Of a stretch of 64,000 nt of DNA, positions 13,997 to 26,647 are shown piece by piece. Numbering within the stretch: the first letter of the stretch is position 1; each line of letters opens with the position of its first letter. The notes below the pieces were generated by a model. It saw nothing but the letters and a program-made list of their open reading frames with translations. It did no database searches and was not told the origin of the DNA. Where the stretch lies: assembly GCF_014696925.1 (NCBI RefSeq), contig NZ_JACJQY010000009.1:86766-150765 (forward strand), given 5' to 3'. Source of the stretch: Phormidium tenue FACHB-1050 (GTDB lineage: Bacteria; Cyanobacteriota; Cyanobacteriia; Pseudanabaenales; Pseudanabaenaceae). The position numbers and the translations under genes are program-made.

Positions 13997-14330
13997 ATGG
14001 ACAATCAAAGTAAACCTTTAGTGTGGCTGCATGGAGAAGTTAAGACTCCGCCTTTCAGTCAAGAAATACGGGTAGAAACAGGTGTTCTACTTAGGCAATT
14101 GCAGCAAGGATTGTCTCTCGGATTACCTCATTCTCGTCCTATGCCAAGTATTCGGAGAAGGCTGTCATGAGTTACGCATTAGAGATGCTGATAAAAACTG
14201 GAGAATCATTTATCGAATTGATGATGATGCAATTCTAATTGTGGAGGTTTTTAACAAATCAACGAGAGCGACTCCCAAGAATGTGATTGAAGTTTGCAAA
14301 AAACGCCTTAGTAAATACGATGCTGACTAG
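13997..14330 (+). pseudogene. HigB/Gp49-like toxin, frameshifted
   Basis: From ATG 13997 the frame gives a typical N-terminus (KPLVWLHGEVKTPPF, then LLRQLQQG) but stops at a TGA at 14168. The rest of the family (GEGCHELRIRDADKNWRIIYR, then VIEVCKKRL) continues in another frame to 14330. One extra base, most simply C14153 in ATTCGGAG, explains the break. The family (phage-derived Gp49-like, HigB) are ribosome-dependent mRNA interferases. As read, the toxin is inactivated while the antitoxin behind it is intact. A sequencing error or programmed frameshift cannot be excluded. Confidence 0.75.
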
Positions 14331-14343
14331 CAGGATTAATGCG

Positions 14344-14658
14344 ATGGATTTAGATAAAAGAGCACGTTTGGAGTCTAAGGGCTGGAAGGTCGGTACAGTT
14401 TCAGATTTTTTAGAGTTAACACCTGAAGAATCTGTTTTGGTAGAAATTAAGTTGGCTCTTAGTCAAAGCTTGAAGGAGCGTCGGCAAAAGCTGATGACTC
14501 AAAGTGAACTTGCTTCTAAGATGAGTTCTAGTCAGCCTCGGATCGCTAAAGCTGAAAATGGTGATGCTTCTGTTTCTATTGAGTTATTGATTAGGGCAAT
14601 GTTGGCGACTGGTGCGACTCCTCAAGATATTGGACAGGTTATTGCTGGCGTAGGTTAA
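14344..14658 (+). CDS. HTH (XRE-type) antitoxin
   Basis: A 104-residue protein with a Cro/C1-type helix-turn-helix at about residues 47-100 (MTQSELASKMSSSQPRIAKAE, recognition helix in the SSQPRIAKAE part). The frame extends to 14287, but that part overlaps the toxin tail; ATG 14344 gives MDLDKRARLESKGW, a normal HigA-like N-terminus. Directly follows the HigB-like toxin and probably represses the pair through the palindrome at 13972. Confidence 0.82.
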   Translation: MDLDKRARLESKGWKVGTVSDFLELTPEESVLVEIKLALSQSLKERRQKLMTQSELASKMSSSQPRIAKAENGDASVSIELLIRAMLATGATPQDIGQVIAGVG

Positions 14659-14661
14659 GCG

Positions 14662-14790
14662 ATGGTTGCGGCAAGTCGAGATATGTCGATAGATGCGTTG
14701 CTAAAATTTTATATTGGGAATGGGTTGCGCGAAGATAAGGCTAAGTTATTTAGCGATCGCAAATCTCTCCACGAAAAAGGCGATCGCTAA
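14662..14790 (+). CDS. Small ORF or gene fragment
   Basis: Begins 3 bases after the antitoxin stop and encodes 42 residues (SIDALLKFYIGNGLRED...), ending in residues read from two HIP1 octamers. The first 30 residues look like a real folded N-terminus; the tail does not. Possibly the degraded start of another antitoxin-like gene. No family is assigned. Confidence 0.3.
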   Translation: MVAASRDMSIDALLKFYIGNGLREDKAKLFSDRKSLHEKGDR

Positions 14791-14880
14791 GAAATAAATC
14801 CCACACAATCACAATATTCATGATTTCATATTTTCATTGTAAGATCTAAATTATGAGAGATCTAACATTGAGGTAACAAA

Positions 14881-15105
14881 ATGGAAAATCAATTAATTGT
14901 AAGAGATCCTGAAATTCTCTCTGGAATACCTATATTTAAGGGAACTAGAGTTCCTGTAAAGAACTTGGTTGATTATCTGGAAGCAGGAGACTCTCTGGAA
15001 GAATTTTTAGATGACTTCCCAACTGTGCAGAAAGAAAAAGTAGTGAAGTTTTTGAATTTATCAATCAAATATTATTTGGCACATGATTATGAAAGTGCTG
15101 CTTGA
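14881..15105 (+). CDS. DUF433-family antitoxin
   Basis: 74 residues with the DUF433 pattern: IVRDPEILSGIPIFKGTRVPVKNLVDYLEAG, then a helical segment ending near the C-terminus. DUF433 proteins are HTH-like antitoxins normally paired with a DUF5615 PIN-like nuclease whose start overlaps theirs. That partner does start at 15089 in the overlapping frame but is cut to 14 codons. A TATA-like region and a GAGGTAAC ribosome site precede the ATG. Confidence 0.85.
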   Translation: MENQLIVRDPEILSGIPIFKGTRVPVKNLVDYLEAGDSLEEFLDDFPTVQKEKVVKFLNLSIKYYLAHDYESAA

Positions 15106-15133
15106 TGAGTGCTTGCCCAAAAATTTTCCCTAA
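15089..15133 (+). pseudogene. Truncated DUF5615 (PIN-like) toxin start
   Basis: ATG inside the DUF433 tail opens a frame MKVLLDECLPKNFP and then stops. MKVLLDECLP is the characteristic DUF5615 N-terminus with the first acidic active-site residue. The family is normally over 100 residues, so the rest has been lost. The break point coincides with the 3' end of the opposite-strand PIN gene, whose stop overlaps this TAA. Confidence 0.7.
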
Positions 15134-15537
15134 ATCCGTGAACTTTCTTCATAGGCTTGAAAATCTACAGGGGCAATAATATCAATATTCTCGAATCGGG
15201 CAATCGCTAACAAATCTTTATCTCCCGTAACGATACATTGAGCTTTACCTGCCAAAGCTGTTGCCAAAATCCAATCATCATCAATATCTCGACATACTTG
15301 CTGCTCTAATGGAGATGGGATAACTATTTCCATCTTTGAGCAAAATATTGATAAAGCTTCATTTATATCTTCTGTCTTATACTTGAATTTCTTTTGGAGT
15401 TTTTCTGCGAGTTCATCCAGTATAAATTTGGAGGAAATAATTTCATGAACTTTGAGCGAGTTTTCTACAAGTGCATAACATTTACCTCTAGAGATCAGTG
15501 ATGCTATTAAAACATTGGTATCAAGAACTATTCTCAT
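15130..15537 (-). CDS. PIN-domain toxin (VapC-like)
   Basis: A 135-residue putative ribonuclease with PIN-domain acidic residues: Asp in IVLDTNVLI near the N-terminus, Glu in ILDELAEKL, Asp pair in CRDIDDDWILATAL and Asp in VTGDKDLL. VapC-type PIN toxins cleave tRNA or rRNA. Its ATG overlaps the stop of the upstream antitoxin by 4 bases (ATGA), a standard translationally coupled toxin-antitoxin layout. All key residues look intact. Confidence 0.88.
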   Translation of the reverse strand: MRIVLDTNVLIASLISRGKCYALVENSLKVHEIISSKFILDELAEKLQKKFKYKTEDINEALSIFCSKMEIVIPSPLEQQVCRDIDDDWILATALAGKAQCIVTGDKDLLAIARFENIDIIAPVDFQAYEESSRI

Positions 15538-15767
15538 GACACCATTTCAAAGATATCTTCATCAGTAAATCCACCTTGCAGGTCAGCTTGTTTAAGCATT
15601 TTTTCGCGTAATGTTTGCAATCTACGCACTAAAAGATATTCGCGAACTGCGCGTTCGATGAGTTCGAGAGATGAGATTGCTTCAATCTGCGATCGCGCTT
15701 CGAGTGAATCTCTGACATCGGCTGGTAAGTTTAGAGTGATAGCTTCTTGCATGGAAGTTAAAAGCAT
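15534..15767 (-). CDS. Ribbon-helix-helix-type antitoxin
   Basis: 77 residues; EAITLNLPADVRDSLEARSQIEAISSLELIERAVREYL has the beta strand plus two helices of the RHH fold, followed by a flexible C-terminus that would wrap the toxin. The start may be ATG 15767 or ATG 15752 (MQEAITLNLP), the latter matching typical RHH proteins better. Operonic with the PIN toxin. Confidence 0.8.
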   Translation of the reverse strand: MLLTSMQEAITLNLPADVRDSLEARSQIEAISSLELIERAVREYLLVRRLQTLREKMLKQADLQGGFTDEDIFEMVS

Positions 15768-15918: not shown

Positions 15919-18519
15919 TTATTTAAGGAGATCAGCAATTAATTTAGTACAAACCATTGGATTCTTCTTTGCATATTCATTAAAAAATCGAATAGTAGGA
16001 ACTCCAAGATTAGCAATTTGACTCATTCTAAGATTATCTTTATCAATTTGTTCCTGATCATTAAAATGTTGATGCCCGTCTACTTCTACAACGCATAATT
16101 TTTTAGATTCATGATTGAAACATATGAAATCAGCCTTATAGTATTTGTCAATTTTAACTTGACGTAATACTTCTAGCTCCGAATTTAAAATTTTGTTATA
16201 TAGCTCATCCTCTCCTGCTCCTATCAAGTGACTATTAATTTTAATTTCTCTGCCTTTACTAATTTGCCAGCCTTTAGCACGACAAACAATAGACATACTA
16301 AATTTTTTATAAAACAACTTATGGCGTATCCAAACACCTATCCACAAAGCCGCAACATAAACAATGAAATTACTGCCAACAAATATATCTATAGACACCA
16401 ATAAAATTGATGGAAAAATGTGATTCCAAAATTTAACTGTTGGGATATGTCCAGCATTGGGGCGAGTAGCAGGGTAAATTCTATAGTTTTCTTTTTGTAA
16501 AATTGTTTGATTAGAATTTACTGTAGAAGATATTGAACTTACTCTATTATTTTTAGCAGGTATATTATTAGACTGATTTACTTTAGTTTGTACAACTGAA
16601 AATATTCTTCCATCTTGTAATATTTTTTGCCAATCAGTGACTTGTATAGGTATCGAATATCCATCAAACCTTGCAATCAGTCGTTGGTCATCCATATCAA
16701 TAATCTGTCCAATACCTTGAGCGTAATCTGGAATAGATACAAAGCTACCTATTTTCAGCCATTTAGGAATAGTTTGTTTTATTGTTGGAGTAGCATTAAT
16801 TGGATTTGGTGAGGACTTAGGCGAAGACTTATTATTTGTTAGATCAATTACGCTTGCAATTAATTTCCAGCAACGCTTCTCGCCTTTCCAGTCTGGAGCT
16901 GCCCAAGGCATATTTAAACTTACGACTACAAGACAGTTTTCATTGGGTAAATAACCTTCATCTAGCTTCTTAATAAAAACTGGATCTGTAATGGTCATAT
17001 TTTCTGATGTTTGACCATTAGCAAGTTCAATTGAACCTTTCCATTTTCGGTTACTATTTCCACTAGAGAACACAGAAAATTTTTTAGGCTGAACTAGTTG
17101 TACAGTATGACGTTTCTCTGCTGGCAAAGCTTTTATCTCAGAAGGACTAACATATTTTAAAGAGTTATGAAGTATATAAGGAAAGTCTTTATAATAAGCA
17201 AGTAGATCGCTTGGACTTGCTTTTCCTAATAATTTCCATTTACCAGATGAGATTGAAATGTTTTCTGATTGAAATCCAAAGTCTTTGCCTGTATTAGCTA
17301 GAGGAATTTCTAATATGTCTAGTAACTCTGGTTCTCTTCCTTGTATAAGTCTAATTTCTCGTGAAACTCGACCATCTTCAGGGTACAAATCATCACATAC
17401 GGGACGTACCCATTTACCAGTTTTAATGTCAATTCCAGATATACAGCGTTCTGTCTCTTTCCAAGAATTTTCCAGACAAATTATTTGTCTTGTTCCAAGA
17501 TTATTAGAAGATATTGTTTTTGCTGTTTGTTGATTTGGAGTAGTAGAAATTGATACTCGATTCTGTGTTTTTAATTCTGACGCTTTAAAACTATAGAAGC
17601 CAGAAGTATTGCCAGTAATTGAGACCACCTGTCTAATACCTAATTCCTGCAAAATCTCTGTAGCAGAAGTTGGTCTTTCCTTTACCCTATAAGCAGTAAG
17701 TCGATCCAATAACTTCCCAAAATTATCGCTAACGGTTCTTCCATGCAAAAACTGTTGCCATTGATATTCATTTTCCAAAACGTCATAGAGCGTAAACGGT
17801 TCCACATTCGTGAGCAAATGCAAACAAGTCACGCCCAACCCAAACAAATCACTCTGAAACACCGACTTACCCAACATTTGCTCAGGAGCGCCATAACTCG
17901 GCTTTCCGATGCCCGTCCCCGTCTTTGCCAATAACGTCGCCGTTGCGTGCTTTGCCGCCCCAAAATCTACCAGCACCAACTTTTGATCACTGCGCCGCCG
18001 AATAATATTGTCTGGCGAAATATCGCGATGAATTACCGACTTGCCATGCACAAACTCCAAAATTTGCAGCACCTCCACCAACACATCCCGCACCTGCTGC
18101 TCACTAAAAGCACCAACTCGCGCTAGTTCCTGCTCCAAAGTCTCACCATCGATAAACTCTTGGATGAGGTACTGCTTCCCCTCATGAATTGTAAAAGATA
18201 GAAGTTCAGGAATTTGGGGATGCTTACCCAAATCATCGAGCCGCTTTGCCTCCTGCTCAAATAACCTGACTGCGACATCCAAAGTTCCTTGACTCGCATT
18301 AGGATTAATCGTTTCAAAAGCAAATTGCTTAATCACACAACGCGGCTGTGATGGCTTCGACTCATCCTGAGCCAAGAAAGTCTTACCAAATCCCCCCTGT
18401 CCAATTACCTTCAAAGCGCGATAACGCTCTTGAATTTGTAACTTAGCGCCGCATTGAGTACAAAATTTGGTTGTTATTGGGTTTAAGCGATCGCAAGCAA
18501 GACAAAGACAGTTAATCAT
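15919..18519 (-). CDS. Ser/Thr protein kinase fused to a dual-OB-like region and a DUF559-type nuclease
   Basis: 866 residues. In order: zinc-ribbon (CLACDRLNP...FCTQCGAKL, residues 4-25); Ser/Thr kinase (about 35-290) with intact Gly loop IGQGGFGKTF, ATP-binding Lys in CVIKQF, HRDISPDN catalytic loop and DFG in VDFGAAK; a region (about 345-575) with ICLENSWKETERCISGID and CWKLIASVIDL resembling dual-OB domains; a small SH3-like piece near 610-650; one hydrophobic helix (about 705-730); and a C-terminal PD-(D/E)XK nuclease of DUF559/Vsr type (about 770-866) with ADFICF and VEVDGHQHF. The kinase and nuclease parts are clear; the dual-OB assignment is weaker. Neighbouring toxin-antitoxin genes suggest a defence role, perhaps kinase-gated DNA cleavage at the membrane. 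That role is inference. Confidence 0.85.
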   Translation of the reverse strand: MINCLCLACDRLNPITTKFCTQCGAKLQIQERYRALKVIGQGGFGKTFLAQDESKPSQPRCVIKQFAFETINPNASQGTLDVAVRLFEQEAKRLDDLGKHPQIPELLSFTIHEGKQYLIQEFIDGETLEQELARVGAFSEQQVRDVLVEVLQILEFVHGKSVIHRDISPDNIIRRRSDQKLVLVDFGAAKHATATLLAKTGTGIGKPSYGAPEQMLGKSVFQSDLFGLGVTCLHLLTNVEPFTLYDVLENEYQWQQFLHGRTVSDNFGKLLDRLTAYRVKERPTSATEILQELGIRQVVSITGNTSGFYSFKASELKTQNRVSISTTPNQQTAKTISSNNLGTRQIICLENSWKETERCISGIDIKTGKWVRPVCDDLYPEDGRVSREIRLIQGREPELLDILEIPLANTGKDFGFQSENISISSGKWKLLGKASPSDLLAYYKDFPYILHNSLKYVSPSEIKALPAEKRHTVQLVQPKKFSVFSSGNSNRKWKGSIELANGQTSENMTITDPVFIKKLDEGYLPNENCLVVVSLNMPWAAPDWKGEKRCWKLIASVIDLTNNKSSPKSSPNPINATPTIKQTIPKWLKIGSFVSIPDYAQGIGQIIDMDDQRLIARFDGYSIPIQVTDWQKILQDGRIFSVVQTKVNQSNNIPAKNNRVSSISSTVNSNQTILQKENYRIYPATRPNAGHIPTVKFWNHIFPSILLVSIDIFVGSNFIVYVAALWIGVWIRHKLFYKKFSMSIVCRAKGWQISKGREIKINSHLIGAGEDELYNKILNSELEVLRQVKIDKYYKADFICFNHESKKLCVVEVDGHQHFNDQEQIDKDNLRMSQIANLGVPTIRFFNEYAKKNPMVCTKLIADLLK

Positions 18520-18629
18520 GCTGAATGAAATTTTCTGGAAAGCTACCTTTGATAATTATGACATTTAGATAGGATGATAGTCCACATCGATTACCTCAAA
18601 GCGATCGCTCGTGTACAAATAAACTCAAA

Positions 18630-18668
18630 CAAAAAAGAGGAGCAAACAATGTTTGCTCCTCTTTTTTG
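18630..18668 (-). terminator. petE terminator
   Basis: A perfect 18-bp stem (CAAAAAAGAGGAGCAAAC, loop AAT on the plus strand) follows the petE stop on the minus strand and ends in a T-tract in that direction: a typical intrinsic terminator. Confidence 0.85.
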
Positions 18669-18694
18669 TCAAATAAGCTCAGTTATTAATTGGA

Positions 18695-20378: not shown

Positions 20379-22232
20379 ATGACAGACGCTTCTAATAATT
20401 CACCTGTTGATTTACCTGTTGATGTTGTAGTTAAGGCAGCGATCGCTGTTACCCAAGCACCTGACGAAGTGCTGATCAATCGTGAAATTGCGATCGCAGG
20501 AACAGCAGATTTTTCGCAAGTTTCACAGATTCTGGTCACCTTACCCAACGAGGCTACCGTTGCGGTGCAACTTAATACCACAACAGGAACTTGGCAAGCA
20601 AAAATTGCGGCGGGTTTGCCCAATGCCTCAGCGACATACTTACGGGTAAGGGCTATAGGCGCAAACAATCAACTTTTGGCAGAGTTAATCGTCAATATTT
20701 TAGTCAAGCTGCCGACAATTTCACTGGTCACCAAGCAAGGGACTCTCTTCAAAACCTCACCTGCGGATTCTTCGACCTTACCACCCAATGCAAAGGTCGA
20801 AGTGATGGCTGGGCAAACCTTTGAAGTGTTGCGTTATGGTGCTGTTGATGGACATATTAAGGTTTTGCTCAAGCAGCCGATCGCCCCTGTCGGAGAATTT
20901 GGTTATTTCTATGGACTGCATGTGGATTTGATTGCGCCAATTACGCTCACAGTCAAGCAAAACACGATTTTCAAGATTTCTACAGCAGCTTCACAAGCTT
21001 TGCCCTTTACTCAAAAAGTCGAGGTAAAAGCAGGCACAGAGTTTTTGTTAAATGGGGATTACACGATCGCAGATAACCATATTCGAGTCAAACTAGCGCA
21101 ACCGCTAGCCCCCGTTGGACAGGATGGGTTCTTTTTTCTGCCCCATGTCGAATTATCAAAACTAGGTGAATCCCTCGATTTTGCTGATCCTGAGGATGTT
21201 AGCAATATTCAGATCAAGGGCGCGATCGCCACGGTGATCACTGACACTTTTTTGAAAGCATCTTCACAGGATGCAAGTAGACTCTCCAACTCGCAAAAAA
21301 TCATGGTCAAGGCGGGTACGACCTATCCGATTAGTGGCTATGCTGCGGTTAATGGTCATTTTCGCGTGAAGTTTACTTCAGATGTCGCGCCCATTGGCGA
21401 TGTGGGCTTTTTCTATGCGCGACATGTCAGCATTACCAAAAATGGCAAAGCGATCGCCTTTGATCCAGATATGAAAACGCTGACCATTAGACAAAATACG
21501 GTACTCAAAAAACGCCCCATCGATTCGCGCCAGTTAACAGCTAGTGAGTTAGCACCTCTCACCGCAAGCGATGTTTTTGGGGTAGATAGCTATAGTCTCA
21601 CCGACATCCATTTTCAAGTCACTTTAAATGAAGACGTACCACCCCTAGGAAAGTCTGGATTTGTATTTGCGGGGCATGTCAATCTCAGGCAAGGCAATAG
21701 GGCGATCGAGTTTACGCCCAAGCGCAAGGTTTTAGGTGTTCCCTATTTTTCGCAATTAGATAATCCCCGTGATCCTTTTGTAACTTGCAATGTTACTTCG
21801 ATCGCGATGGTGTTAGCTTTTCATGGCAGGCGATCGCGCAATCCCCGCCAACAACTAGAGGATGAGTTATATCAATGGATCATCGATCGCTACGGTAGAC
21901 AAGCGCGTACTGACAATTCAGTTATGCAAAAGCTGTATCAAGCCTATGGCTTTGGTGGGGGCTTTAGTACAACTCGCACATGGTCACAAATCAAACAAGA
22001 ACTCATCGAAAATCGCCCCGTTGTGATCGGTGGCTACTTCACCCACGGCGGACATATCATTTGTATTATTGGCTTCGATGAATTTGGCTACATTGTCCAC
22101 GATCCCTATGGCAACGCCCTCACAGGCTATCGCCAGACTGAGGGGAAAAGTTTGCGCTATCCCTATGTTTACATGCGCGACATGTGTGGTGTTGATGGCG
22201 ATGTCTGGGCGCATTTCATTTTGCCCCGCTAA
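20379..22232 (+). CDS. C39-like cysteine peptidase with repeated beta modules
   Basis: 617 residues. An Ig-like N-terminal module (about 25-110) is followed by four related ~70-90-residue modules, each with a pattern like LFKTSPADSSTL...KVEVMAGQTF...GHIKVLL...APVGEFGYFYGLHVDL (about 115-440). The C-terminus (about 455-617) is a peptidase_C39_2-like domain: VPYFSQLDN, catalytic Cys in TCNVTSIAM, His in GGHIICIIG and Asp in VHDPYGN. There is no evident signal peptide, so the cell location is unclear. It could process peptides or bind cell-wall material through the repeats. The stop lies in the terminator palindrome. Confidence 0.82.
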   Translation: MTDASNNSPVDLPVDVVVKAAIAVTQAPDEVLINREIAIAGTADFSQVSQILVTLPNEATVAVQLNTTTGTWQAKIAAGLPNASATYLRVRAIGANNQLLAELIVNILVKLPTISLVTKQGTLFKTSPADSSTLPPNAKVEVMAGQTFEVLRYGAVDGHIKVLLKQPIAPVGEFGYFYGLHVDLIAPITLTVKQNTIFKISTAASQALPFTQKVEVKAGTEFLLNGDYTIADNHIRVKLAQPLAPVGQDGFFFLPHVELSKLGESLDFADPEDVSNIQIKGAIATVITDTFLKASSQDASRLSNSQKIMVKAGTTYPISGYAAVNGHFRVKFTSDVAPIGDVGFFYARHVSITKNGKAIAFDPDMKTLTIRQNTVLKKRPIDSRQLTASELAPLTASDVFGVDSYSLTDIHFQVTLNEDVPPLGKSGFVFAGHVNLRQGNRAIEFTPKRKVLGVPYFSQLDNPRDPFVTCNVTSIAMVLAFHGRRSRNPRQQLEDELYQWIIDRYGRQARTDNSVMQKLYQAYGFGGGFSTTRTWSQIKQELIENRPVVIGGYFTHGGHIICIIGFDEFGYIVHDPYGNALTGYRQTEGKSLRYPYVYMRDMCGVDGDVWAHFILPR

Positions 22233-24120: not shown

Positions 24121-24519
24121 ATGTATTTCGACTTCCTTATTCCTAAACGCCCCGTATCTTTGCAAACAAGAAAAACCGCAAATTTACAAGCATGGAAACA
24201 ATATGTTCGCACCGAAGCTGCAAAAACTTGGACAGGTCAAATTTTTGCGAATCAAGATGTTTACCTAAAATTGATTTATCTTTATGATAGCGATCCTGTT
24301 GATACTGACAACATCATTAAACCAATCCAAGACGCATTGATTGGGCTGATTTACGCAGATGATTTACTGATTACAGATGTAGAAGCCCACCGTCGTTCAC
24401 TATATGGAGTGTTTGACCTAACCCTATGCCCAACTCCTCTTGTTCAAGGCATAATATCAGGCATAGAATGTGTATATGTTAGAGTTTCTGAATCTAAACC
24501 ATTGGAGGACTACTTATGA
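24121..24519 (+). CDS. RusA-like Holliday junction resolvase
   Basis: 132 residues with the RusA core: DPVDTDNIIKPIQDALIGL followed by YADDLLITDVEAHR, giving the conserved Asp residues (DxDN and D in IQDAL, plus DD) that bind Mg2+. RusA enzymes cut four-way DNA junctions and are mostly phage-derived. Its stop overlaps the next ATG by 4 bases, so the two are co-translated. Start ATG 24121, 12 bases after the permease stop. Confidence 0.85.
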   Translation: MYFDFLIPKRPVSLQTRKTANLQAWKQYVRTEAAKTWTGQIFANQDVYLKLIYLYDSDPVDTDNIIKPIQDALIGLIYADDLLITDVEAHRRSLYGVFDLTLCPTPLVQGIISGIECVYVRVSESKPLEDYL

Positions 24520-25205
24520 CTGTTGATTCTCAATTAGTGGAAAAGGGTTTAGGCACTAAATTTTCAGAAAAAGATAGATTGCAAGGAATTGCAGAAAAGT
24601 ATAGATTGCAAGGATTTGAAGTTGTAATCGAGCCGTCTAAAACCTTGATTCCTTTTAACTTAGGAAATTATCGTCCAGATCTTATTGCAAGAAAGGGATC
24701 GGATGAAGGTTATATAATTGAATTTAAAAACTCAATTGCTAAAATCTCAGTCGATCGCTATCGAGAAATTGCCGAAATAGTTGCTCAGCATCACGGTTGG
24801 AGATTTTTATTGATCACTGGAGAAGATGTCTCTTCGGAAGATCCCCAAAATGATAGTGAATTGATGACTTGGGAACAGATGTTGCAACGCCAAGAACAGG
24901 CTCAAAAGTTTTTAGCGATCGGAGAAATGGAAGTTGCCTTTTTGTATTTATGGGGAGTTTTGGAAGCTGCCATGCGTCGTCAAGCTAGGCAAGTTGCAAT
25001 TCCGATAGAACGCTTTCCTGCTAACTCTTTGATTAATCATTTGTATTCTCAAGGCGAGCTTTCGATGGAACATTTTGATCAAGTAAGAGTAATTCAAACT
25101 GTACGTGATCGCTTCATACATGGCTATCTAATGCCTAATCTTGATGAACCTACAAAACAATTGCAAGTGCTTGTTAATGAATTAATTGCAATGTGGAAGA
25201 TCTAA
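24516..25205 (+). CDS. AHJR-like restriction-endonuclease-fold protein with RX4H (HEPN-like) C-terminus
   Basis: 229 residues. The N-terminal half has a PD-(D/E)XK core as in the AHJR-like family: YRPDLIARKG, then YIIEFKNS, giving Asp and E-x-K. The C-terminal half is helical (EMEVAFLYLWGVLEAAMRRQ) and ends in QTVRDRFIHGYL, in which RDRFIH matches the HEPN RNase pattern RX4H. Coupled to the RusA-like gene, so junction cleavage plus a second nuclease is likely. Stem of a 27-bp palindrome begins inside its last codons. Function (repair or defence) is inference. Confidence 0.75.
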   Translation: MTVDSQLVEKGLGTKFSEKDRLQGIAEKYRLQGFEVVIEPSKTLIPFNLGNYRPDLIARKGSDEGYIIEFKNSIAKISVDRYREIAEIVAQHHGWRFLLITGEDVSSEDPQNDSELMTWEQMLQRQEQAQKFLAIGEMEVAFLYLWGVLEAAMRRQARQVAIPIERFPANSLINHLYSQGELSMEHFDQVRVIQTVRDRFIHGYLMPNLDEPTKQLQVLVNELIAMWKI

Positions 25206-25244
25206 ATCTATGCTGACAGATTTAGATCTTCCACATTGCAATTA
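25183..25244. terminator. 27-bp palindrome that copies the gene end
   Basis: Arms of 27 bp, perfectly complementary, around an 8-base loop (ATGCTGAC). The left arm is the last seven sense codons, the stop, and four bases beyond; the right arm is its reverse complement. The likely terminator. Confidence 0.8.
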
Positions 25245-25312
25245 GTGAAACGTCAGTCGGCAAAGGCTTAACTCATAGATTTAGTGGCAATAAAACTGAA
25301 TCGCAACACTAA

Positions 25313-26647
25313 ATGAAGAATACTAAAAACAATATGGCACAGAGTAAAATCGATGAATCTTTTCAGGAGATAAGATCACTAATTGATTTTTTGAAATCGA
25401 GAACTGAAGCTCCTACGGAAAAAATACTTTCACTATATTTTGAACGTCACGAACTAGGCAGCTTGCACTTAGATTATGAAGAGGCTTCACGTTATCATAA
25501 GTGCCTAAGGAATCTAATAAAAAATTCAGTTAAAGACAATGACTTAAGCCTAAAGAAGGTAGAAAATGCTTTTCAAGAGACTTTATTAAAAGCACTATGC
25601 GTGAATACTAGTTCTATTTCTGAAGATTTAAGAATTAGTGAAATCCTACAAAATTTGAAGCAAAAAATTACTGCTAAACGAATTACATACCGTTGCTATA
25701 TTCCAATATGCGGAATAAGTGAGAGAGGTCTACCTTTATCAATAGGACAAATTGAATTTATTGTTTTTGACGATCTTCTTGTCAATCATTTCCAAGAAAT
25801 AGTGGCAAAACATCCAATTCAAAAAGAAGATAAATGGAAAACGCTTAAAAATAATATTGATACGAGTTTCTATGAAAAAGTATTTAGTGTAGTCACTGTA
25901 GAAGCAAAAGATTATGAATCAGCACAAGTAATCGCAATCAAAAAAACACGAAAAATTCTAGACATACTTAATTTTTTTAGCGCATTAGTTCCATACAATC
26001 CTGATGCTTGGGCATACTTGTCGGGAGACTCAGGATCACATTTGTTTGAAACAATTATACTAAATGAAGATGATGGAGTCAGTTTAAATATTGGTAGAAA
26101 GCGGCTCGGTTCGTTACAGAAACTTGAAATCCTAAGAATTATAGAATCAGATGAAAAAGACAATATTGGCTTTAGTCATATTAACAATCTTCTAAAGAAA
26201 AACAATCTAAATAAATTTGAACAAGCTTTGATTACCGCTATACAGTGGATAGGAAGAGCCGTTATCGCTAATAGACGAGAGGATGCATTTCTCTTTTACG
26301 CTATTGCACTTGAAAGTATTGTATTAGTAGACAACGAAAAAGCTGAGTTGAGTTATCGTTTGCGGATACGAATTGCTCATCTGATTACAAGTAACCCAAA
26401 GAATCGAAAAGAAGTAGTGAATGCTGTAAGAGAACTTTACAATCTACGCTCAAAGCTCGTTCATGATGGAAAGTATGAGATAACTGACCTAGAGCTAAAT
26501 TCTATGAAATTTATATCCATACGTTGTATTCAACGTTTATGTATTGACCCTAGATTCCAAAACATTACTTCTCCAGAAGATTTTTCTGACTGGTTAGAAG
26601 ATCAGATTCTTGCTAATGTCATTGAGAAATCCGATATTACAGTGTGA
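25313..26647 (+). CDS. ApeA-like HEPN-domain protein
   Basis: 444 residues. The N-terminal part is unassigned. The C-terminal part (about 310-420) resembles the ApeA HEPN domain: AIQWIGRAVIANRREDAFLFYAIALES, then YRLRIRIAHLI and VRELYNLRSKLVHDG, where RSKLVH is the RX4H RNase motif. ApeA is an HEPN anti-phage protein, so an abortive-infection role is possible. Start at ATG 25313 or ATG 25334. Low GC, A-rich codon use compared with neighbours suggests transfer. Confidence 0.72.
   Translation: MKNTKNNMAQSKIDESFQEIRSLIDFLKSRTEAPTEKILSLYFERHELGSLHLDYEEASRYHKCLRNLIKNSVKDNDLSLKKVENAFQETLLKALCVNTSSISEDLRISEILQNLKQKITAKRITYRCYIPICGISERGLPLSIGQIEFIVFDDLLVNHFQEIVAKHPIQKEDKWKTLKNNIDTSFYEKVFSVVTVEAKDYESAQVIAIKKTRKILDILNFFSALVPYNPDAWAYLSGDSGSHLFETIILNEDDGVSLNIGRKRLGSLQKLEILRIIESDEKDNIGFSHINNLLKKNNLNKFEQALITAIQWIGRAVIANRREDAFLFYAIALESIVLVDNEKAELSYRLRIRIAHLITSNPKNRKEVVNAVRELYNLRSKLVHDGKYEITDLELNSMKFISIRCIQRLCIDPRFQNITSPEDFSDWLEDQILANVIEKSDITV

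Follow-up and report, generated by a model that had tools for sequence, protein, structure and literature searches.

How did a Ser/Thr kinase and a nuclease come to share one polypeptide, and what might that polypeptide do? The gene that raises this question lies within a 64,000-nucleotide stretch of Phormidium tenue FACHB-1050 DNA (contig NZ_JACJQY010000009.1, positions 86,766 to 150,765; hereafter the window). Sequence comparison indicates that it is a mosaic, with a tail of DuOB, SH3/Tudor-like and nuclease parts where orthologues of its kinase mostly carry GUN4 or FGE-sulfatase domains. This tail appears to have been joined or exchanged through recombination. We read the gene as one that may work as a kinase-switched, membrane-held nuclease, with DuOB binding a nucleic-acid or nucleotide signal, and give this reading a probability of about 0.45.

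Domain layout of the window protein

The ATG-started open reading frame (ORF) encodes 866 aa with zero internal stops. Its domain order is two CxxC pairs, a Ser/Thr kinase, a linker, DuOB, an SH3/Tudor-like part, a hydrophobic stretch and a DUF559-type nuclease:

15919..18519, minus strand: whole gene, 866 aa
18451..18504, minus strand: candidate zinc ribbon, Cys6/9 and Cys20/23 (sub-cut-off profile and CxxC pairs)
17647..18423, minus strand: Ser/Thr kinase, residues 33-291, with HRDISPDN at 164-171 and DFG at 185 (Pfam, sequence)
17488..17646, minus strand: linker within which DNA homology with orthologues stops, at residues 297-340 depending on the orthologue (DNA comparison)
16849..17487, minus strand: DuOB, residues 345-557 (Pfam, PADLOC, model)
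16567..16773, minus strand: SH3/Tudor-like, residues 583-651, also found N-terminally in a DEAD/DEAH helicase family (sequence matches, model)
16327..16425, minus strand: hydrophobic, predicted membrane segment, residues 699-731 (sequence, model)
15922..16275, minus strand: predicted PD-(D/E)XK (DUF559-type) nuclease, residues 749-866, with Asp797, Glu812 and Asp814 (Pfam, alignment, model)

Three domains matched Pfam above cut-off, namely Pkinase (32-290, 2.4e-33), DuOB (PF22557; 344-556, 2.7e-42) and DUF559 (770-861, 2e-8); these positions are in query numbering, to which 1 should be added, as the query omitted Met1. The zinc ribbon profile fell below its cut-off (DZR, 18.2 bits versus 27.3), with both CxxC pairs present. 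The hydrophobic segment could form either a single helix or a two-helix hairpin. In six genus genomes, frames that read as DEAD/DEAH helicases have an N-terminal part with 35-41% identity to the SH3/Tudor-like part, and one such frame, carried by a P. galeata CCNP1313 plasmid, is annotated as a helicase. The initial annotation had described a single chain with zinc ribbon, kinase, dual OB region, one membrane helix and nuclease. This layout stands, with the zinc ribbon at sub-cut-off level and the membrane part either the one helix described or a hairpin. The parts it named are present; the SH3/Tudor-like domain at about 583-651 and the mosaic nature of the gene had been overlooked.

The full-length structure model had a mean predicted local distance difference test (pLDDT) score of 51, and DuOB alone was well modelled (~90). 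The kinase and nuclease were poorly modelled because the alignment was thin, and we claim no kinase fold from these coordinates. Six short nuclease or SH3/Tudor rows, which were misplaced, were left out of the combined alignment. We note that a structure family absent from the VIA tables is not thereby excluded.

The kinase half is likely active, as judged by its sequence motifs. It has the VIK lysine, HRD, loop Asn and DFG, which fits the earlier description of an active kinase; against it, the catalytic-loop Lys is Ser (HRDISPDN), and activity is a prediction. This Ser is shared with 16 out of 16 orthologues (one reads HRDTSPDN), whereas Lys is kept in all 13 more distant kinase loci.

The kinase was also compared with those of known defence systems. 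PD-T4-6 is a single-gene defence system. The window protein resembles it in matching a high-scoring kinase profile (PADLOC model PDLC04062), but at 353.6 bits it is outscored by a GUN4-tailed orthologue (566.9 bits), and GUN4- and FGE-tailed kinases in general match as well or better. We therefore regard the profile as non-specific and do not place the protein in PD-T4-6. Scores for the MADS kinase MAD6 (131.1 bits) and BREX PglW (71.3 bits) were below the NCBIfam equivalog cut-offs of 460 and 990, respectively.

One kinase with several tails

The first 322 residues of the window protein were found at 88-97% identity in 17 out of 26 genus genomes, its own included, with the next best match at 65%. 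The window protein falls within the genus kinase orthologue group, defined by at least 88% identity and the motif HRD(I/T)SPDN. Tails were assigned by Pfam for seven orthologues and one separate ORF (in G005), and by reading for the remainder. Among the other 16 orthologues, seven have GUN4 tails (G018, G001, G021, G011, G017, G008 and G005), two of them incomplete, and seven have FGE-sulfatase tails (G010, G025, G024, G003, G004, G012 and G013). The last two are truncated or frame-broken (G023 and G022). In G008 a contig end cuts the GUN4 tail, and in G003 the frame stops early. In G005 the kinase is followed by an insertion sequence (IS) element, past which GUN4 lies in a separate ORF, so this GUN4 may belong to another gene. 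The window protein itself had no Pfam match to either a GUN4 or an FGE-sulfatase tail.

DNA homology with eight orthologues ends between bases 890 and 1020 of the coding sequence, equivalent to residues 297-340, and DuOB begins at about residue 345. We rejected a step in guanine-plus-cytosine (GC) content as proving the tail foreign, since the linker common to the orthologues is itself AT-rich and a similar drop is seen with other tails. Nor do we conclude that tails were exchanged repeatedly, because the kinase tree is poorly resolved.

Related tail arrangements have been described. In the passages concerned, PMC7159879 states that cyanobacterial GUN4 shares a polypeptide with kinases, caspases, trypsin and TIR and is a likely photosynthesis-status sensor, and that cyanobacterial conflict systems have FGE-sulfatase domains on the C-terminal side of at least 10 other domains. 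The passages of PMC7517822 describe C-type lectin domains that are grafted onto serine kinases lying N-terminal to them and are scattered through genomes. On the strength of these passages, C-terminal module exchange on kinases is therefore already known. The kinase-GUN4 and kinase-C-type-lectin/FGE-sulfatase proteins that they treat have a kinase orthologous to ours, and the GUN4-tailed one of G018 lies at the same site; the window protein differs in its DuOB, SH3/Tudor-like, membrane and nuclease parts. A DuOB-nuclease module as a kinase C-terminal tail was not found in the literature, which here and below means open-licence PubMed Central (PMC) papers.

The DuOB-nuclease tail

By profile, residues and modelled fold, the C-terminus is a DUF559-type nuclease, with DNA cutting predicted. 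The initial annotation described the motif VEVDGHQHF as intact; the nuclease residues Asp797, Glu812, Asp814 and His818 are invariant across all 33 aligned rows. DUF559 scored 34.5 bits against a cut-off of 20.6, and the related MTES_1575 scored 30.2, under its 38.2. Modelled alone, the domain has the helix and strand order of PD-(D/E)XK enzymes and matches PD-(D/E)XK nucleases, in agreement with the proposal that this part folds as a nuclease. It shares active-site residues and fold with DUF559 and Vsr-like PD-(D/E)XK nucleases (PDB 3hrl, 1cw0) and differs from them in its fusion to a kinase. No kinase motif was seen in 22 DUF559-bearing frames longer than 250 aa (30 loci, flanks cut at 1.5 kb). 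Separately, G000:C19 (L030, L210) contains a type I restriction HsdR-like long frame with in-frame DUF559, flanked by repeat-like SPSPTGRGARGEG stretches, and HsdR-like frames with in-frame DUF559 and SPSPTGRGARGEG flanks likewise occur at L025/L205 (G012) and L207 (G017).

DuOB is component A of the PADLOC phage-defence candidate PDC-M45, in which DUF488 genes are PDC-M45B and C. The window protein matches PDC-M45A (4.2e-24 whole, 1.8e-24 for the tail alone), and its DuOB aligns across the family's invariant residues. The comparison also took in HIN-200 DNA sensors, with their tandem OB folds of HIN type, to which the protein may or may not be related. The domain was present in 44 out of 386 cyanobacterial genomes, with a frame longer than 312 residues solely in the window genome. 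Of 58 relatives, 13 have DuOB, and all 12 others adjoin two DUF488 genes. A scan of genome contigs gave 274 relatives, of which 80 loci were kept; within 3.5 kb of DuOB, two DUF488 frames were found at 75 of these loci, one at 3 and none at 2. Such DUF488-DUF488-DuOB sets (L118-L197) are common in cyanobacteria and also occur in planctomycete and other genomes. No paper was found on the set, PDC-M45 or DuOB. DUF488 has a single passing mention in the part of PMC12704722 concerned, and term counts for PMC10853773 gave neither DUF488 nor DuOB.

The window gene has lost, or never had, DUF488 partners. None lie beside it, and a whole-genome search gave one weak match on contig C5 (the gene is on C89), at 2.6e-11, where most PDC-M45 pairs reach 1e-20 or lower; a DUF488 gene of this weak type also occurs in two DuOB-less congeners. 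The gene shares with PDC-M45 the match to PDC-M45A and the invariant residues, but it has no PDC-M45B or C beside it and is fused to a kinase and a nuclease. It is therefore not a PDC-M45 system, and its function may be alike.

Other fusion partners of DuOB include RecQ and WD40 repeats, which resemble the window gene in joining DuOB to another module and differ in the partner. At the 80 kept loci, four DuOB frames had the length of RecQ fusions and two that of WD40 fusions; no kinase or nuclease fusion was seen among the DuOB frames, as judged by frame length rather than by scanning each frame. The DuOB tail did not match the PADLOC STK_OB model at 1e-5; this model matched one petE-side or window ORF used as a control below (4.9e-77). 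At L013 and L014 (G023), a DuOB gene is split by a 391-residue transposase ORF.

Genomic site and possible function

The gene occupies a small variable insert between housekeeping genes, with tab2 on one side and petE/psbV on the other, and no large defence island:

18628..18670, minus strand: terminator-like hairpin behind petE, 20-bp stem and 3-base loop, where homology with congeners that have no kinase at this site resumes (DNA comparison)
15130..15767, minus strand: gene for a PIN-domain toxin with a small partner ORF upstream of it, in the variable insert (PIN_3 7.9e-15; partner without Pfam match)
14082..15105, plus strand: Gp49/RelE-like toxin, helix-turn-helix antitoxin and DUF433 genes, same insert (Pfam)

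The insert begins directly behind the petE hairpin, petE being upstream of the kinase gene. Its variable nature follows from the toxin-antitoxin genes, from the tab2-to-petE gaps without a kinase (~190 bases in G016, ~855 in G019) and from its occupancy, with the kinase at the petE-side site in 5 out of 26 genomes (its own, G018, G005, G008 and G022; some other contigs end nearby). Here another genome carries this kinase followed by two GUN4 domains. The toxin-antitoxin cluster reported by the initial annotation was recovered by Pfam, except for one small ORF without a match.

Three further observations concern neighbouring or petE-like genes. At 24516-26647 of the window, an AHJR-like restriction endonuclease gene (PF18743, 2.5e-21) precedes a 444-residue ORF that lacks a Pfam match and has the lowest third-position GC (0.238) of 40 window ORFs; neither gene matched PADLOC at 1e-5. 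At 20379-22232 is a 617-residue protein with a C-terminal C39-like peptidase preceded by four repeats that look similar by eye. Finally, L077 (G006) has a tandem pair of petE-like genes.

The reading as a kinase-controlled nuclease follows from the combination of kinase, DuOB, predicted membrane segment and predicted nuclease tail. What the data show is how the domains are arranged, that orthologous kinases end in other tails, that the predicted active site of the nuclease is intact, and that DuOB usually stands beside two DUF488 genes in a set listed by PADLOC as candidate defence. We suggest that a resident zinc-ribbon kinase acquired the DuOB-nuclease tail by recombination and that the hydrophobic segment would hold the protein in the membrane. 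DuOB would act as the sensor; once it bound its signal, the kinase, if active, would switch the nuclease, the gate being phosphorylation of either this protein or a partner. The purpose could be to limit phage or other foreign DNA, and a role in phage defence is plausible.

Several observations weigh against this interpretation: the Ser in place of the catalytic-loop Lys, the lack of a DUF488 partner (present at 78 of 80 DuOB loci), the modest Z for DuOB in structure comparison, and the location between housekeeping genes. A small defence-island comparison took 93 ORFs of 150-900 aa from the surroundings of 12 of the 80 DuOB loci, hand-picked because their flanks were long, and used as controls 93 ORFs from genus petE-side loci and the window (97 ORFs, less four conserved-flank duplicates and a few others, plus 21 from the window). 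At 1e-15, 78 PADLOC models were matched in the test set versus 40 in the controls, counts confounded by the many test models on single methyltransferase ORFs and by controls unmatched by genome. The test set contained one DUF488 gene by mistake, and mad3, PDC-S03, AbiLi and AriA were matched in both sets, among the matches listed.

The main rival, which we consider somewhat unlikely, is a regulatory or DNA-repair protein whose kinase answers stress and whose DuOB and nuclease process the cell's own DNA, with no phage role. The position between tab2 and petE/psbV is consistent with it, as are the GUN4 tails of orthologues (read as photosynthesis-status sensors in the PMC7159879 passage), the fusion of DuOB to RecQ helicases, and a nuclease fold that takes in repair enzymes such as Vsr. 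The patchy distribution, with the tail in 1 out of 26 genus genomes, and the variable, toxin-antitoxin-bearing site argue against it.

A second alternative, quite unlikely in our estimate, is a chance fusion, its frame still open, in which recombination joined a tail but kinase and nuclease are uncoupled and only one half is functional. The rarity of the architecture is in its favour. At 1e-12, the 386 cyanobacterial genomes sampled gave no further match to the C-terminal 313 residues, and other matches within the genus were all short. No relative was found among 74 pattern stretches from viral contigs, phages had no copy, and plasmids gave one record only, a helicase matching just the SH3/Tudor part. 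Scanning genome contigs with the tail alignment gave 18 stretches and no relative, although both patterns lie within the DuOB start and near relatives may have been left out. Stand-alone tails also exist: P0005 and P0006 run from just before DuOB to the nuclease without a kinase, and they may or may not be complete genes. They contain a ~47-residue segment after DuOB, also present at L003, L004, L005, L010 and L165, that the window protein is missing. However, the whole layout recurs in two metagenomic proteins of 868 aa (P0001) and 848 aa (P0004), which retain the frame and catalytic residues, the nuclease being 84-96% and the kinase part 90-96% identical. P0003 (778 aa) has the same layout but lacks roughly 96 residues at its start, and P0002 is probably a cut protein; by their names, P0001 and P0003 come from Pseudanabaena metagenome-assembled genomes. 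The architecture thus occurs elsewhere, but in these proteins and not in the cyanobacterial, viral, phage or plasmid sets, and the search for papers on a kinase-DuOB-nuclease layout found none, in agreement with the initial annotation. A derived one-protein PDC-M45 system still using DUF488 proteins encoded elsewhere is very unlikely, since the DuOB match to PDC-M45A is set against a sole DUF488 gene that is weak, on another contig and of a type also found without DuOB.

A broader version of the kinase-switched nuclease reading, which we hold to be doubtful, treats the kinase as a chassis with exchangeable tails: a GUN4 photosynthesis-status sensor, an FGE-sulfatase lectin-fold sensor, or a self-contained DuOB-nuclease immune device. 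In the last, DuOB would sense foreign nucleic acid and phosphorylation would unleash the membrane-anchored nuclease, one protein doing the job of the DUF488-DUF488-DuOB operon. Because all three kinds of tail occur on the same kinase within a single genus, natural variants allow the kinase and each tail to be tested. If the kinase-switched nuclease reading is true, a resident signalling kinase would be convertible into a nuclease effector via tail exchange, and the gene would offer a first handle on DuOB, a domain widespread beside DUF488 pairs and listed as candidate defence.
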